NCBI GenBank assembly: GCA_016198685.1
Contig: JACQID010000006.1
Coordinates: 62,001 to 126,000 of the forward strand
Direction of reading: 5' to 3'
Source: Candidatus Aenigmatarchaeota archaeon
GTDB lineage: Archaea > Aenigmatarchaeota > Aenigmatarchaeia > GW2011-AR5
DNA: 64,000 nt
Every line of letters begins with the position of its first letter. The first letter of the stretch is position 1. Below, piece by piece: positions 26,533-39,142 of this stretch. A model generated the notes under the pieces. It was given only the letters and a program-made list of their open reading frames with translations, did no database searches and was not told the origin of the DNA. The position numbers and the translations under genes are program-made.

Positions 26533-26566
26533 CAATTTAAGTATGAAATATGCATACTTCGTATGC
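26533..26566 (+). promoter_or_regulatory. TATA element with overlapping palindromes, putative RHH operator
   Basis: The TATA-like CAATTTAAGT at 26533-26542 lies about 25 nt before the ATG at 26563. GTATG (26541-26545) pairs with CATAC (26553-26557), and GCATAC (26552-26557) pairs with GTATGC (26561-26566) around TTC. The three half-sites run from the TATA element through the start codon of a gene encoding an RHH DNA-binding protein. Binding there would block transcription. Confidence 0.6.
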
Positions 26567-27330
26567 GCAAGCAAAAAATAGCCATTTCTTTGAGCAAAGA
26601 GCTCTTGGAGAATATAGACCGCAGTGTTGATGGAAAAAGTGTTCGAAGCAGGAGCCAGTATATAGAAACCATGATCAGAAAAGGTATGGAATCGCAGAGT
26701 GCGCAAATGGCCGTAATAATGCTAAGGAAAGAGCATCACTCTGTTGCCCTATCACGATTCAAGAATGGTACTCTGCTTTCTTCACAGGCCGATTTTCTAT
26801 CCAGACACGGCGTATCGGAAATACTCATAGTCACCCAGAAAGGGCCTCAGCTGGCAGAGCTTGAAGCCTATGCGCAGCGTATGGAACACCCGGCAAAAAC
26901 AATAGTCACGGATAAACCCGGAAACGCGGATGCGCTGAAATTAGTAAGGGATCGCATGGATTCAAATTTTGTTGTTCTTTCCGGTGATGTATATAACGAC
27001 TTCGATCTGAAGAAAATGATGGAGAAGCATGCCCAGAAAGGCGTAATGATGACGATGGCGCTCATGAGCAGGGCATCGCCTTCGAAATACGGAAACGTGA
27101 TACTTGATGGCGATATGGTTGTCAGCTTTCAGGAGAAACCGTCATCGGCGGTTTCGCATCTTGTTAACGCAGGCCTTTACGTTTTCAGCCCGGCTGTGTT
27201 CAGTGCCATGGAAGGATGCCATTTCTTGGAGAAGGAACTTTTCCCCAAGCTGGCTTCCATGAGGCAGCTTACAGGCTACTTCACTATGGGCGACTATTAC
27301 CACGCCCAAGAAGCTTCGCCGCGGCCCTGA
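26563..27330 (+). CDS. Ribbon-helix-helix domain fused to a degenerate sugar-nucleotidyltransferase domain
   Basis: 255 residues. Residues 3-45 form an RHH (CopG/Arc type) DNA-binding domain: strand K-I-A-I-S-L-S, helix K-E-L-L-E-N-I, turn, helix S-R-S-Q-Y-I-E-T-M-I. From about 48 the chain follows the nucleotidyltransferase Rossmann fold: H-G-V-S-E-I-L-I-V-T, V-V-L-S-G-D-V-Y-N-D-F-D, F-Q-E-K-P, N-A-G-L-Y-V-F-S-P. The catalytic G-G-x-G-T-R-L-R-P-L-T loop is absent (R-K-E-H-H-S-V-A-L-S instead), so catalysis is unlikely and ligand sensing is more plausible (inference). It is convergent with, and overlaps by 47 nt, the next GT9 gene. Confidence 0.8.
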   Translation: MRKQKIAISLSKELLENIDRSVDGKSVRSRSQYIETMIRKGMESQSAQMAVIMLRKEHHSVALSRFKNGTLLSSQADFLSRHGVSEILIVTQKGPQLAELEAYAQRMEHPAKTIVTDKPGNADALKLVRDRMDSNFVVLSGDVYNDFDLKKMMEKHAQKGVMMTMALMSRASPSKYGNVILDGDMVVSFQEKPSSAVSHLVNAGLYVFSPAVFSAMEGCHFLEKELFPKLASMRQLTGYFTMGDYYHAQEASPRP

Positions 27331-33385: not shown

Positions 33386-34468
33386 TTATATCTTATTATT
33401 CAAAAAATACATGACATCCTCGGCAACTTTTCGCACTTCCTCTTCTCTCAGTTCAGGAAACATAGGCAACGACAGGATATCTTTCGCATTTCTTTCTGCC
33501 TTGGGATAATTTCCCGGCAGTGAAAATGCCTTCTGCATATGTATAGGCACAGGGTAGTGTATTCCGGTGCCTATGCCCCTTTCCTTAAGATATGCCATGA
33601 GTGCGTCTCGTTGCTTTATGCGAATTACATAAAGATGATAGGCGTGTTTTCTCCCCGTTTTTTCTTCAGGAATAATCACGCCTGATAGAAGTTCATTGTA
33701 TAACTTTGCGATATGCCGTCTAGCCTTTATCCATGATTCAAGGCGCTTGAGTTTGACGCGCAATATCGCCGCCTGAATTTCATCCAGCCGGCTGTTGTAT
33801 CCGAAGAACAAGCTGTCATAAGTCTTCTTTTGACCGTAAAAGCGGAGCATTCTTAGTTTTTCTGCAAGCTCGTCGTCATCCGTGACAATTGCGCCTCCGT
33901 CCCCATATGCGCCGAGATTCTTAGTCGGATAAAATGAAAAGCATCCTATGCCGGAAAATCCCACTTTTTTGCCGGAATATTCTGCTCCGTGGGCCTGAGC
34001 GCAATCTTCTATTATTTTCAGGCTGTGTTTGTTTGCTATGCTGCGTATCTCTTTCATGTCGCACGGTTGGCCGTAAAGATGGACTGGTATTATGGCCTTT
34101 GTCTTGCGTGTTATCTTTTGCTCAATGAGAGCGGTATCTATATTGTAATGACTATCGCAGTCAGCAAGTATTGGGGTAGCCCCGACACTCATTATTGCCA
34201 TGACCGTAGGAGATGCAGTGTTCGCAACAGTAATCACTTCGTCTCCCGGGCCTATGTCGAGAGCCCGGAGCGATAGGATAAGCGCGTCTGTACCCGATGC
34301 AACGCCAATGCAATGCTTGTTGCCGTTGTAGGCGGCGAATTCTTTCTCGAAAGCAACGACATTCTCTCCCAGGACGAAAACGCCGTTCTCAAGCACGGAG
34401 AATACAGCGCTATCTATTTCATTTTTGATGGTAGCGTACTGCCTTTTCAGGTCAAACACAGGTATCAT
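33386..34468 (-). CDS. Sugar aminotransferase, DegT/DnrJ/EryC1 family (FdtB/QdtB-like)
   Basis: 360 residues. PLP lysine K183 in [15 protein letters not shown]155/Q158 in E-D-C-A-Q-A-H, and R near the C-terminal G-Y-N-S-R-L. It probably transaminates a 3-keto or 4-keto deoxysugar nucleotide. It directly follows an FdtA-like ketoisomerase (1-nt overlap), which is the FdtA-FdtB pair for dTDP-3-amino-3,6-dideoxyhexose. Last gene of the six-gene operon headed by an RHH-nucleotidyltransferase. Confidence 0.88.
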
Positions 34469-34860
34469 TATTTTCCGCCTCTGAACGAATCATAATCCTT
34501 AAGATAATCATCGGCATTATAATGCTCTGAGCACAGAACCATTATCACAGCGCCTTGCGAAATGTTTTGCATCTCGACCCAGATGCGTTGTGGAACGTAA
34601 AGCCCCTTCGCCGGACCATTAAAACTATGCACTGCCTTAACACTGCCATCATCGGTGATTATATCGGCGTTGCCCTGCAGGACTATAAACATCTGCTCGC
34701 ACTTCTTGTGGGCATGGCCTCCCCTTTTCGCCCCGCGAGGAACTCCGTATATGTAGAATATTCTTTTCACATCAAAAGGTATATCTTTTCCAGCTTCTAC
34801 AAATCCAAGACTCCCGCGAGCATCAGTTACTTCAGGGAGTTGTATAATTTTTACGCTCAC
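34468..34860 (-). CDS. dTDP-4-keto-6-deoxyhexose 3,4-ketoisomerase (FdtA/QdtA-like cupin)
   Basis: 130 residues, a single cupin. [11 protein letters not shown] near residue 46 holds the catalytic histidine pair, D-A-R-G-S-L near residue 13 and G-L-Y-V-P-Q-R-I-W near 87 and [10 protein letters not shown] near 113 are family signatures. It converts a 4-keto to a 3-keto sugar before transamination. ATGA-type overlaps on both sides indicate coupled translation with the epimerase and the aminotransferase. Confidence 0.88.
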
Positions 34861-35834
34861 TCAAACCACCATCTGTTTTGTCTGCACCACGCAATCATTT
34901 CCCTAATGCCTTCCTCAAGAGAAGTCGTTGCTTCCCAGCCGAGCATGGCCTTCGCCTTGCCTGCGTCAGGCACACGCCTGGGAATGTCTTCATAGATGCT
35001 TCCATAAAGCTTTCTCGTATCAACATACTCTACGCCAAGATCTTCCCGGCCCGCGGCCTTGAGCATCAGTTGAGCCGTCTCATTGAGAGTTCGCTCTTTC
35101 ATGCTGCCGATATTGAACGCATGTCCTTCTGCTTTCTTGGATTCCGCTGCGAGCAAAGTTCCTTCAATGGCGTCCTTTACATATGTGAAACAGCGTGTCG
35201 GAGTTCCTCCGTCATATATGAGAGGTCTTTCATTTCGCAATATCCTGCGCAGACATGCGGGTATCATGAATATCGGCGCCTGCCTTGGGCCGTAGACGTT
35301 AAAATAGCGGACTATTGTCACAGGCAATCCATGCATGCGGTTCAATGCAAATAGCATATGCTCACTCATGCTCTTGCTGGTGCTGTATGTCCACCTGTCA
35401 ACTTTGGTGCTGCCTACCACACGGTCATCGTCCTCTTTCCACGGCACTTTTGGATTCTTTCCAAACACTTCACTCGTACTCGTGTATATGACCTTCGTTC
35501 CATGCTTCATTGCAGCTTCAGCCACGTTTTTTGTGCCCAATATATTGACGCTTACAGTGCCTAAAGGATCCTCACAGTAATTTTTCACCCCGACTACAGC
35601 GGCAAGATGGTAGACGACATCAATATCCTCTGTTATAACATCCTTCATGCCATTGCCTGTTATGTCTCCTTTGACAAAATGGAATCTTTCGTTTGTCTTC
35701 AGATGCTGTATATTCCGCAATTTTTCCAGTTCTGCGTTGTCAAAAACCGTTACCTCATGGCCTCTTTGCAGAAGCTCTTCAGTCAAATGACTGCCTATGA
35801 AACCGCCCCCTCCGGTGATTACAAGATTAGCCAT
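34857..35834 (-). CDS. NAD-dependent sugar-nucleotide epimerase/dehydratase (extended SDR)
   Basis: 325 residues. T-G-G-G-G-F-I-G-S-H, S-T-S-E-V-F-G and Y-S-T-S-K are the SDR motifs. T-S-E in place of the T-D-E of RmlB resembles epimerases, UDP-glucuronate decarboxylases and GDP-mannose dehydratases. In an operon with a nucleotide-sugar dehydrogenase and the FdtA/FdtB pair it could provide the 4-keto intermediate or decarboxylate a uronic acid; the sequence does not decide. It overlaps both neighbours by 4-8 nt. Confidence 0.85.
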   Translation of the reverse strand: MANLVITGGGGFIGSHLTEELLQRGHEVTVFDNAELEKLRNIQHLKTNERFHFVKGDITGNGMKDVITEDIDVVYHLAAVVGVKNYCEDPLGTVSVNILGTKNVAEAAMKHGTKVIYTSTSEVFGKNPKVPWKEDDDRVVGSTKVDRWTYSTSKSMSEHMLFALNRMHGLPVTIVRYFNVYGPRQAPIFMIPACLRRILRNERPLIYDGGTPTRCFTYVKDAIEGTLLAAESKKAEGHAFNIGSMKERTLNETAQLMLKAAGREDLGVEYVDTRKLYGSIYEDIPRRVPDAGKAKAMLGWEATTSLEEGIREMIAWCRQNRWWFE

Positions 35835-37218
35835 GTATCCTGCCTCCTTGAGGTTTGCCTATTCCTGCATATCCGAACCCATTCTCCGCCGCCTTGACCG
35901 GGCCAAATATAATTCTCCCCTCCACAATCGAACAGCCTTCAGCTGCAATGCCGTGCAGTTTTTTGAGATCGAGCGACTTGAATTGAGGATGATCGGCGCC
36001 TATCAATATACAGTCCGCATTTTCTATTGCGCTTTCGGGGGTTTTTGCGACATTCCCTGCAATCATCCGGGCATCGTTTTCAGTAACCCAAGGGTCATAT
36101 GCAGTCACGATACAATTTTCAGCCTCCAGCAGTTTCACTATTTCTTTCATCGGCGTATTGCGCACGTCTCCAGTCCCGCCCTTGAAAGCGAGACCGAGAA
36201 CTGCGATTCTGCTGCCTTTGATTTTTTTGTTCGCATATGCAAGGCAGCTTTTGACAAGATCTACGGTATGGGCAGGCATGGCTTCATTTACTTCCCGTGA
36301 CGTCTTCGGAGTCTTGAGATTCAGCCCTGCCTTTTTGCCAAGATGATACACAAACCATGGGTCTTTAGTAAGGCAGCTGCCGCCAACGCCGCATCCCGGA
36401 TATAATATATTGACCATGCTCCTGCCTTTGGGCAGGCTATTTGCCGCGTCTATTACTTCTGAGGCATCCAGCCCCATCCTTTCGCATAGCATTGCAAGCT
36501 CATTGGCCAGTGCGATATTCGCGTCTATCCAGAGGTTATCGGCAAGCTTGGCCATCTCTGCGGCTTTTGCCGAAGAGACTTTTGTTGTGACAAACCCGTT
36601 TGACCGCCAGAATGATTCGGCTTTCTTGCCGCTTTCTGCGTCTATGCCGCCTATAATTATAGGAAGCTTTTTCAGGTCTTGGATTGCAGACCCTTCAGCC
36701 AGGCGCTCCGGGCAAAACGCAAGTCCGAAGTCCTTTCCTGCCTTGAGATTGGATTTCTTTTCTAACATTATCTTGACAAGCTCTTCGGTCGTGCCGGGAG
36801 TAACAGTGCTTTTGAGTATGATCATAGCGCCTTTTCCGACCAACGAACCTAATTTTTCAGAAACTTCATTTATGTATTCAAGGTTAGGCTCGTAATTTTT
36901 GCCTAGCGGAGTGCCGACAGTCACAAGAATTACATCGGCATCGGCGACTTCCGATATTTGTGCCGTAGCCCGTATGTTTCCTTTCTTAAGGGCATCCGAG
37001 ATGAGTCCTTCGACTTCAGGCTCGTTTATCGGCGACTTTCCGTTATTTACAGCGTTTATTATTGCAGGATTGACATCAATTGCAATCACCTTGTTATTTC
37101 TGGCAAGTAGAGAGCCGATGCTGGCGCCCACATAGCCAAAGCCTATGACAGCAACTACCGTCTTCCCCGTTTTTGTCTGTTCCATTATCTGTTCTTCATC
37201 GAGAGAAAATATTTTCAT
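35827..37218 (-). CDS. Nucleotide-sugar dehydrogenase (UDP-glucose/UDP-ManNAc 6-dehydrogenase family)
   Basis: 463 residues. NAD motif G-F-G-Y-V-G at about 26-31, catalytic cysteine in G-G-S-C-L-T-K-D-P near residue 277, and the C-terminal sugar-binding domain with L-A-F-K-G-G-T-G-D-V-R. A-F-C-P-E-R-L-A-E-G is closest to the WecC/TviB (UDP-ManNAc or GlcNAc) branch. It oxidises C6 to a uronic acid in two NAD-dependent steps. GGTGATAT upstream of the ATG is a good ribosome-binding site. Confidence 0.92.
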   Translation of the reverse strand: MKIFSLDEEQIMEQTKTGKTVVAVIGFGYVGASIGSLLARNNKVIAIDVNPAIINAVNNGKSPINEPEVEGLISDALKKGNIRATAQISEVADADVILVTVGTPLGKNYEPNLEYINEVSEKLGSLVGKGAMIILKSTVTPGTTEELVKIMLEKKSNLKAGKDFGLAFCPERLAEGSAIQDLKKLPIIIGGIDAESGKKAESFWRSNGFVTTKVSSAKAAEMAKLADNLWIDANIALANELAMLCERMGLDASEVIDAANSLPKGRSMVNILYPGCGVGGSCLTKDPWFVYHLGKKAGLNLKTPKTSREVNEAMPAHTVDLVKSCLAYANKKIKGSRIAVLGLAFKGGTGDVRNTPMKEIVKLLEAENCIVTAYDPWVTENDARMIAGNVAKTPESAIENADCILIGADHPQFKSLDLKKLHGIAAEGCSIVEGRIIFGPVKAAENGFGYAGIGKPQGGRIHG

Positions 37219-37226
37219 TATATCAC

Positions 37227-38288
37227 CTAAACGCTTATGTCAGAATCTTCCCCTATCATGAGCCTCATCGTATCCCCGTTCCTTATTTTCGAATTCTTCC
37301 CCAAAAGGCTGCCTGATATTTTTTTAGCTCCTATGTCAATGAAGCAACCTGACATGAGTATGGAAGATTCCACAGTTCCGCTGATTATTTCGGATAAATC
37401 ACCGATTGATGTGTAAGGTCCGATGGAAGCGTTTGCTATAGTGCAATTGTCTCCTATTTTGACAGGCCCTATTATCTTCGCCCCCTTCCTCACTACTGTT
37501 CCTTTCCCGATTTCAACCGCGCCGTGAATAGACGCGCCTTCTTCGACGGTTCCTGCATTATATGGTTTAAGCGCCGAAAGTATCATTTCATTGGCATGAA
37601 GGACATCTTCGCCTGTTCCTGCGTCATCCCACCATCCGCTTATCGTATGGTGCAGTACTTTTCTGCCGGACGATAGCAAGCCCTGTATGGCGTGCGTTAT
37701 TTCAAGCTCATTTCTCGCCGAAGGCGACAAGACATCTATTTGCCTCATAATAGATGGCCGGAATATGTACACGCCTACAATCACCGTATCGCTTTTGGGT
37801 TTGACAGGTTTCTCTTCTACGCTTACTATGTTATTATCCTTTATCTCGGCAACCCCGAATCTTTCCGGCGTCCTAGACTTTGCAAGGAGAAGGCTCGCAT
37901 CGGCGTCTGACGCAAAAAACTCCTTCACGAATTTCCCTATGCCGCCGCTAATGATATTATCTCCAAGATACATTACAAAAGAGTCCTGTCCGAGGAAATC
38001 GCGTGCCGTCCATACCGCGTGAGCGAGGCCTCTCGGCGCATCCTGCTCTATATAAGTTATTTTTGCGTTCCATTTACTTCCGTCTCCGCACGCGTCTTTG
38101 ATAGCGTTTATTCTCTCGGCGGAATAGCCAACTATTATGCCTATTTCTATTACTCCGGAAGCTACAAGATCCTCTATCGCATAATGAATGACAGGCTTGT
38201 TGGCTATAGGGATTAACTGCTTTGGGCCTGCATGGGTCAGAGGGCGGAGGCGTTTGCCCAACCCGCCGGCCAGAATGATGCCCTTCAT
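37227..38288 (-). CDS. rmlA: Glucose-1-phosphate thymidylyltransferase, long form
   Basis: 353 residues. The catalytic loop is intact: G-G-L-G-K-R-L-R-P-L at residues 8-17 and P-K-Q-L-I-P-I-A-N-K-P. G-L-A-H-A-V-W and Y-L-G-D-N-I complete the RmlA pattern. A C-terminal left-handed beta-helix (about 240-345) distinguishes the long, archaeal/actinobacterial form. It supplies dTDP-glucose (or a related sugar nucleotide) to the downstream operon. The 4-nt overlap with the RHH-nucleotidyltransferase gene makes it the second gene of the operon. Confidence 0.9.
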   Translation of the reverse strand: MKGIILAGGLGKRLRPLTHAGPKQLIPIANKPVIHYAIEDLVASGVIEIGIIVGYSAERINAIKDACGDGSKWNAKITYIEQDAPRGLAHAVWTARDFLGQDSFVMYLGDNIISGGIGKFVKEFFASDADASLLLAKSRTPERFGVAEIKDNNIVSVEEKPVKPKSDTVIVGVYIFRPSIMRQIDVLSPSARNELEITHAIQGLLSSGRKVLHHTISGWWDDAGTGEDVLHANEMILSALKPYNAGTVEEGASIHGAVEIGKGTVVRKGAKIIGPVKIGDNCTIANASIGPYTSIGDLSEIISGTVESSILMSGCFIDIGAKKISGSLLGKNSKIRNGDTMRLMIGEDSDISV

Positions 38289-39097
38289 TTCACCAGCCTC
38301 CTTGCGGCTTCTGCATCCTGCTTTGTATGGATGTTGACGAATTTTCCGGATAGTATTGCGCCGCCCAAAACGCCCTTTTTGCTGAGTTCAGGAAACAAAT
38401 CCTTGTGAAGCGAGAATTTCCTGTCGGGTATCATTGTAAATATTTCAGGCTCCGCAAAAGCTATCATCGTGGAAACAAGGGTAGTCTTCTCAACAGAGGG
38501 CGTATCCCAGTAATTTATAATGTCGTTCCCGTCCAATTCGACCACAGAACTGCGGTTGCCGTCATGCCTTATGCCTCCATAAATGGCAAGCGTGGCAGGA
38601 TAGCCGCTGCGCCTGTGGACATTTTCCAGTTTTCTTAAATCAAAATCAAAATAGTGGTCGCATGGAACGAAAAGGAATGTACCCCTCACTTTCGCGCTCG
38701 CGAGTTTCAAAGTATTCGCGCTATCGCCCCTTGCCTTTTCCTCGATATATGCAACAGAACATCCCAGCGACTCGCCGTTCGCCAGTATCCCGAAGCATCT
38801 TGTCACAACTTCTTTGGTGCCTATTATAATTATGTTTCTGTAGCTCTGGCCCACGACTTTTTCCACGATGCGCTGAATCAAGGTTCTGCCTCCTATGTCC
38901 ATGAAGGGCCTGTATTCGCCGTCCGTAATCAGATAATCGCCCCCGCCTGCAAGAATAACACAGTACCTGCCCGCATCCATGTATTCCTGAAGAATTGATT
39001 CTATGGCGCCTGATCGTGTGTCAGAGAGCGCTTCCGCGTATGCGTCCACGCTTTTTATCATCTTGTCCGGAAGGGAGAGCGAGATTCTTTTGCGCAT
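38285..39097 (-). CDS. Ribbon-helix-helix domain fused to a variant sugar-nucleotidyltransferase domain
   Basis: 270 residues. Residues 2-42 are an RHH domain (strand R-I-S-L-S-L-P, helix K-M-I-K-S-V-D-A-Y, helix S-G-A-I-E-S-I-L). From 45 a nucleotidyltransferase fold begins: C-V-I-L-A-G-G-G-D-Y-L, E-Y-R-P-F-M-D-I-G-G-R-T-L-I, then V-P-C-D-H-Y-F-D-F-D. The R-L-R-P-L-T part of the loop and the PKP lysine are changed, so activity is doubtful. The ATG at 39097 aligns with its paralogue (both MRK...); a GTG at 39106 is an alternative. It heads the rmlA operon and sits just below three phased promoter repeats. Confidence 0.82.
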   Translation of the reverse strand: MRKRISLSLPDKMIKSVDAYAEALSDTRSGAIESILQEYMDAGRYCVILAGGGDYLITDGEYRPFMDIGGRTLIQRIVEKVVGQSYRNIIIIGTKEVVTRCFGILANGESLGCSVAYIEEKARGDSANTLKLASAKVRGTFLFVPCDHYFDFDLRKLENVHRRSGYPATLAIYGGIRHDGNRSSVVELDGNDIINYWDTPSVEKTTLVSTMIAFAEPEIFTMIPDRKFSLHKDLFPELSKKGVLGGAILSGKFVNIHTKQDAEAARRLVK

Positions 39098-39105
39098 AGT
39101 AATCA

Positions 39106-39132
39106 CGTAATAAAACGTAATACTATCGTAAT
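39106..39132 (-). promoter_or_regulatory. Three helically phased repeats over the RHH-nucleotidyltransferase promoter
   Basis: CGTAAT occurs at 39106-39111, 39116-39121 and 39127-39132 (ATTACG on the transcribed strand), with spacings of 10 and 11 nt, about one helical turn. They lie between a TATA element (39131-39139) and the ATG at 39097. Tandem half-sites one turn apart are typical RHH operators, and the gene encodes an RHH protein. Confidence 0.65.
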
Positions 39133-39142
39133 ATATTTAAGC

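Follow-up and report, generated by a model that had tools for sequence, protein, structure and literature searches.

Why does an operon with a true RmlA gene begin with a second, RHH-bearing relative of this enzyme? The question is raised by six closely packed genes (spacings of -4, +8, -8, -4 and -1 nt) on the minus strand of the window, that is, of the whole 64-kb stretch of DNA that was analyzed. The first gene encodes a fusion of an RHH domain of the CopG/NikR type with a sugar nucleotidyltransferase-like (NTase) domain. The explanation that we favor, with a probability of about 80%, is that this protein acts like PutA as an autoregulating repressor, with an enzyme domain that has been turned into a nucleotide-sugar sensor; both repression and ligand are inferred.

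The fusion gene and its operon

The focal reading frame is uninterrupted over 38285-39106 (minus strand). Its probable start is the ATG at 39097, because relatives begin MKxRISL at this point of the family alignment, and not the GTG at 39106, which would add three residues and falls inside the third promoter repeat described below. With the ATG start, the gene (38285..39097, minus strand) codes for a protein of 270 amino acids, in which the RHH domain occupies residues about 1-42 and the NTase-like domain residues about 45-270. Profile searches matched residues 7-42 to RHH_1 (PF01402) at 20.4 bits versus a Pfam cutoff of 20.5, and residues 50-226 to NTP_transferase (PF00483) at 43 bits. Among relatives, E values for RHH_1 were as low as 3.7e-8, and at E < 0.001 NTP_transferase was detected in 45 of 45 family members and RHH_1 in 19 of 45. 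When compared with PDB sequences, the RHH part matched NikR (E 3.5e-5 with a clade profile) and the NTase part RmlA/GalU. The AlphaFold2 monomer model (mean pLDDT 88.8) contained two post-strand helices in the RHH part (11-23 and 28-42), whereas the intermolecular RHH strand is not expected in such a model; profile match and helices together satisfied the test for an RHH domain. The nearest solved folds found by Foldseek were GMPPA/GMPPB and RmlA-type enzymes (E 6.5e-17), with the GMPPA/GMPPB complex as the top match, and the test for a sugar nucleotidyltransferase of the NTP_transferase fold was passed by both profile and fold. Thus, the first-pass annotation, which had placed an RHH-nucleotidyltransferase fusion at the operon head, held for the frame and for both domains.

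The same is true for its proposal of a six-gene sugar-nucleotide operon with a true RmlA in second place, which agreed with the gene spacings and with the profile score of that protein (TIGR01208, 402.6 bits vs a cutoff of 320.25). This second gene (37227..38288, minus strand), which shares 4 nt with the fusion gene, encodes the long form of RmlA, a glucose-1-phosphate thymidylyltransferase with a left-handed beta-helix. The other four genes, all on the minus strand, encode a nucleotide-sugar dehydrogenase of the UDP-glucose/UDP-ManNAc dehydrogenase family (35827..37218; TIGR03026, 400.5 bits, cutoff 189.8), an RmlB/LegB-like 4,6-dehydratase of the SDR type (34857..35834; below equivalog cutoffs), an FdtA-like dTDP-4-oxo-sugar ketoisomerase of the WxcM-like C-terminal family (34468..34860; PF05523, E 1.3e-47) and a DegT/DnrJ/EryC1 sugar aminotransferase (33386..34468; PF01041, E 2.2e-122). 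The combination of RmlA, RmlB-like dehydratase, FdtA and DegT suggests a dTDP-amino-deoxysugar product, with the nucleotide-sugar dehydrogenase alongside. No Rfam match was found anywhere in the 64-kb window, and therefore no known riboswitch family.

We compared the NTase domains at the catalytic positions of RmlA (R15, K25, D110, K162 and D225). The focal domain keeps one of the five, D110; K25 is replaced by R, K162 by T and D225 by N, and R15 is absent, so that the protein failed the residue test for an active RmlA-type nucleotidyltransferase. The same N is present in 18 of 18 members of the focal-clade alignment. The C-terminal domain is descended from an RmlA-type nucleotidyltransferase, with loss of catalytic residues in the focal clade. 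In contrast, ten fusions (L059, L060, L062, L066-L070, L077 and L090) keep all five residues, and judging from these residues the family likely spans active enzyme-repressors and dead sensors. For the clades of these ten relatives, a bifunctional trigger enzyme is plausible, in which the NTase is still active and the fusion combines catalysis with regulation, as in PutA. For the focal protein this is quite improbable, considering its single remaining catalytic residue, the invariant N and the true RmlA encoded next door.

A paralogue of the same architecture had also been predicted in the window and was found at 26563..27330 (plus strand). It consists of an RHH domain with a K-A-S strand and a strongly degenerate NTase domain, more so than the focal one. 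Its operator-like repeats, AAGTATGAAATATGCATACTTCGTATG (26539..26565, plus strand), are kept in two other loci (L089 and L092) as AGTATGA...TCATACT. The region 26539-27330 lies among GT9-like (heptosyltransferase-type) genes.

Phased repeats upstream of fusion genes

The region from a TATA-like box to the start codon of the focal fusion is taken up by three ATTACG units at distances of 11 and 10 nt. The box, TTAAATATAT (39131..39140, minus strand), is of the archaeal promoter type and was read from the sequence, not mapped. The predicted operator half-sites, all on the minus strand, are ATATTAC (39128..39134), which overlaps the TATA-like box, GTATTAC (39117..39123), 11 nt from the first, and TTATTAC (39107..39113), 10 nt from the second. 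A possible weak fourth half-site, TTACTAT (39096..39102, minus strand; 4/6 positions), is located 11 nt from the third and would extend the array in the 11-10-11 phase of relatives' four-site arrays. CGTAAT repeats had previously been noted at 39106, 39116 and 39127; these positions were correct, but what is conserved is GTANTAC, not CGTAAT. Coverage of the transcription start by the repeats was inferred from the TATA-like box; the start itself was not mapped. When up to 3 mismatches were allowed, CGTAAT-N4-CGTAAT-N5-CGTAAT matched only the focal promoter within the 64 kb (0.05 matches expected), which was also the only place in the window with TATTAC pairs no more than 25 nt apart.

Further targets were searched for in the organism's own genome (934,889 bases, 8 contigs) with the pattern TATTACN{2,7}TATTAC, which detected, besides the focal promoter, sites at C3:18718 and C8:16435. 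A reversed-pattern control likewise gave 4 matches, and therefore no further target is claimed in this genome. The C8 site is where a gatE-type gene meets a 125-aa ORF that has no annotation. The C3 site (L096, 1500-1530), GTAATAGTAGTAGTAATAGTAGTAGTAAG, is immediately before a gene for a small CxxC protein and resembles a GTA trinucleotide run; a second target at this site is not excluded.

We compared the DNA around 59 fusion loci, taking 120 nt upstream of each fusion and, as controls, the promoters of 734 further genes from these loci. A k-mer test to which no motif was supplied found enrichment before fusions of TCATACT (19/59 vs 6/734, p 2e-18) and GTATTAC (17/59 vs 13/734, p 4e-13), with TTCATAC also among the top 7-mers. 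It should be noted that related genomes were counted, so these p values overstate independence. The conserved half-site is GTA-N-TAC, a 7-nt pseudo-palindrome, and the arrays of relatives have 2 to 4 half-sites at 10- or 11-nt steps, with 11-10-11 arrays in six loci (L036, L099, L101, L105, L107 and L108). In ten aligned promoters, TA..TA steps were invariant at successive sites.

A scan for arrays with strict 10/11 gaps yielded 27 in 846 kb with the window read twice, which corresponds to 26 distinct arrays in ~780 kb of related loci. Sixteen of these 26 are directly upstream of RHH-NTase genes, and four precede a UDP-sugar dehydrogenase or RmlB-like gene adjoining a fusion (L038, L039, L040 and L041). 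In L040 and L041, no strong array was detected before the fusion, whereas one was present before the dehydrogenase; therefore, the sites mark target operons besides the regulator's own promoter. In an independent set from a genome scan (other DPANN lineages), TATTAC occurred upstream in 11/11, and strong phased arrays were found in 8/11 of these independently fetched relatives vs 6/734 control promoters. Thus, conservation of the repeats in relatives, which the first-pass annotation had named as a check, was observed, with phased arrays before orthologues in several DPANN phyla and near absence from other promoters. No recognizable array was found upstream of the fusion in five loci of the wider clade (L046-L049 and L055), which counts against the favored explanation. 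Separately, a three-site array (GTAGTAT/GTAATAC/GTAGTAT) was seen in L050 (G027), 52 nt upstream of an unannotated gene, a possible target.

Strand residues and half-site types

RHH proteins contact bases through alternating residues of the beta-strand. Fusions with an R-T-T strand had TCATAC in 15/18 cases, with direct TCATAC pairs exactly 10 nt apart in 16/17, and those with an R-S-x strand had TATTAC in 19/24; K-S-x fusions showed neither motif, but GTAGTA/TACTAC. Once dereplicated at 55% identity, this covariation rests on few lineages, with p 0.01 for the TCATAC contrast and a weak p 0.13 for TATTAC. The R-T-T domain aligns with QRVTITL of E. coli NikR, whose operator is GTATGA-N16-TCATAC (PMC7055735), and the k-mer test recovered the TCATAC half-site without that prior knowledge. 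NikR is the best PDB sequence relative of the RHH domain, and the R-T-T clade shares with it the RVTIT strand and the TCATAC/GTATGA half-site. However, its nickel-sensing domain is unrelated to the focal NTase domain, its operator is an inverted pair of half-sites with 16 nt between them in place of the 10/11-nt steps of the fusion arrays, and the focal clade has an R-S-S strand with TATTAC. In the absence of binding data, it remains a prediction that the RHH domain recognizes the array, but one that these comparisons strongly support.

Alternatively, the repeats could serve a different DNA-binding factor or belong to the core promoter of the lineage, with RHH-NTase acting elsewhere. Their position over the TATA-like box and the presumed start, where a basal factor would act, speaks for this reading. 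It is nevertheless very improbable, since the arrays accompany the gene across phyla and the R-T-T motif agrees with the NikR half-site. The near absence of arrays from the 734 other promoters and the dependence of motif type on the strand residues also speak against it, and the core-promoter version was set aside. RHH antitoxins commonly autoregulate from arrays of this kind, and an antitoxin-like gene was also considered, in which the NTase domain would be the toxin or a partner. This reading was set aside and is given almost no weight: that domain is a member of the sugar family PF00483 and not of the minimal nucleotidyltransferases of toxin-antitoxin pairs, there is no constant partner gene, and the neighbors are sugar enzymes.

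A regulatory model and the spread of the family

As a PutA-like autoregulating repressor, the fusion would act as follows. Its RHH dimers would bind GTA-N-TAC half-sites one helical turn apart and thereby line up along one face of the helix, over the TATA-like box and the presumed start site. Occupancy from the TATA box to the start codon would block transcription of the protein's own operon. The NTase-derived domain would most likely sense the nucleotide sugar of the pathway, or a precursor, resulting in end-product feedback, and a nucleotide sugar in the dead active site would probably tune repression. Repression rather than activation is inferred from the position of the sites; the region from the TATA box to the start codon is a typical position for repression in archaea. 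That the ligand is the pathway's nucleotide sugar and that it affects repression is inferred from the descent of the domain, its neighbors and the precedent of GMPPA, and the base specificity of its pocket could not be read from the sequence. The sign of the ligand effect is also inferred, with the end product as co-repressor being our first choice.

The same DNA binding could serve another logic, with dTTP or glucose-1-phosphate as an inducer, or with activation of a divergent promoter. Ligand and sign are unknown, and an array in a divergent locus is flanked by a promoter on each side, which leave room for this possibility. We nevertheless consider it unlikely, because the location of the sites is typical of archaeal repression and end-product feedback fits the GMPPA precedent. 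Human GMPPA, a paralogue of sugar nucleotidyltransferases that is itself non-catalytic, binds GDP-mannose and acts as a regulator of GMPPB (PMC11228364). It resembles the focal fusion in fold and as a degenerate nucleotidyltransferase that serves as a nucleotide-sugar sensor (a role inferred for the fusion), but it works by protein contact, not DNA binding, and has no RHH domain. Similarly, RmlA shares its fold with the focal C-terminal domain, which differs in lacking four of the five catalytic residues and in being joined to an RHH domain.

Trifunctional PutA, in which RHH is fused to proline dehydrogenase and P5C dehydrogenase (PRODH/P5CDH), is the autogenous repressor of put (PMC5293562). 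The focal protein likewise carries RHH at its N terminus, joined to an enzyme fold from the pathway, and its gene is inside the operon that it presumably controls. However, its enzyme part is an NTP_transferase, degenerate in the focal clade, the fusion is archaeal, and its predicted operator is a helically phased array. It therefore passed the PutA-type tests of architecture and operon and failed that of PRODH/P5CDH homology, and is PutA-like in its working but not a PutA. The parts are known; the novelty would be a new sensor domain in an RHH repressor that responds to a metabolite, for which ligand and repression are inferred. The literature searched, which did not cover most subscription papers and preprints, contained no description of an RHH-NTase fusion. 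The model has no binding, expression or ligand data behind it.

Matches to the family were detected in 75 of 115 genomes searched, and more than 50 of the matches include the RHH part. A pattern scan for the focal clade in one genome per species (84,980 bacterial and archaeal species) confirmed 20 loci, all from records titled DPANN-type or unnamed archaea; its pattern was strict, so it bounds the focal clade only. Few regulators have been characterized in DPANN archaea, whose genomes are very small. It is reasonably probable that these genes represent a large, undescribed, DPANN-wide family of RHH + sugar nucleotidyltransferase factors, with living species that represent the stages between an enzyme-repressor that is still intact and a dead-enzyme sensor, a readable strand-to-operator code (R-S-x, R-T-T, K-S-x and K-A-S) and several target pathways. 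Such a family shows intermediates between metabolic enzyme and metabolite sensor, provides, with NikR as its anchor, a natural set of variants for the RHH specificity code, and offers predicted operators, targets and a ligand class that are testable in vitro without host culture.

In the NTase-domain tree, the focal protein grouped with Micrarchaeota and Burarchaeum members (6 rows, 100/93), Woesearchaeota members joined next (8 rows, 98/85), and it was apart from other fusions of its own family. This grouping suggests lateral transfer of the regulator or of the whole operon (33386-39097). Most focal-clade relatives in Micrarchaeota and Woesearchaeota adjoin rml genes (rmlA, rmlB, rmlC, rmlD); for example, in L109, RmlB, RmlC and RmlD were above NCBIfam cutoffs and a fourth gene matched best with RmlA, below cutoff. 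In the wider clade elsewhere, a UDP-sugar dehydrogenase is often the neighbor. Thus, of the gene order expected in relatives, the rml link is conserved across phyla, but a fusion directly before rmlA was found only within the genus (G001), which counts against the favored explanation; outside the genus, the fusion gene in most cases points away from the rml or UDP-sugar dehydrogenase genes or is interspersed among them. Overall, the comparative checks proposed in the first-pass annotation, on repeats and on gene order, did not refute its feedback-loop reading and lent it support. The location of one subclade, f11, in a non-sugar neighborhood also counts against it. In this subclade (L046-L049, L052-L054, L056 and L057), the fusion is kept in a conserved setting, and four divergent genes match Fe/Mn superoxide dismutase.

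Finally, R-T-T fusions from the organism's own family (L065, L073, L080, L082-L084 and L086-L088) are divergent from a neighboring gene, with TCATAC repeats in between. In a tally of divergent genes, GHMP kinase (9/38) and SIS (3) stood out, and these neighbors possibly represent a heptose-nucleotide pathway.
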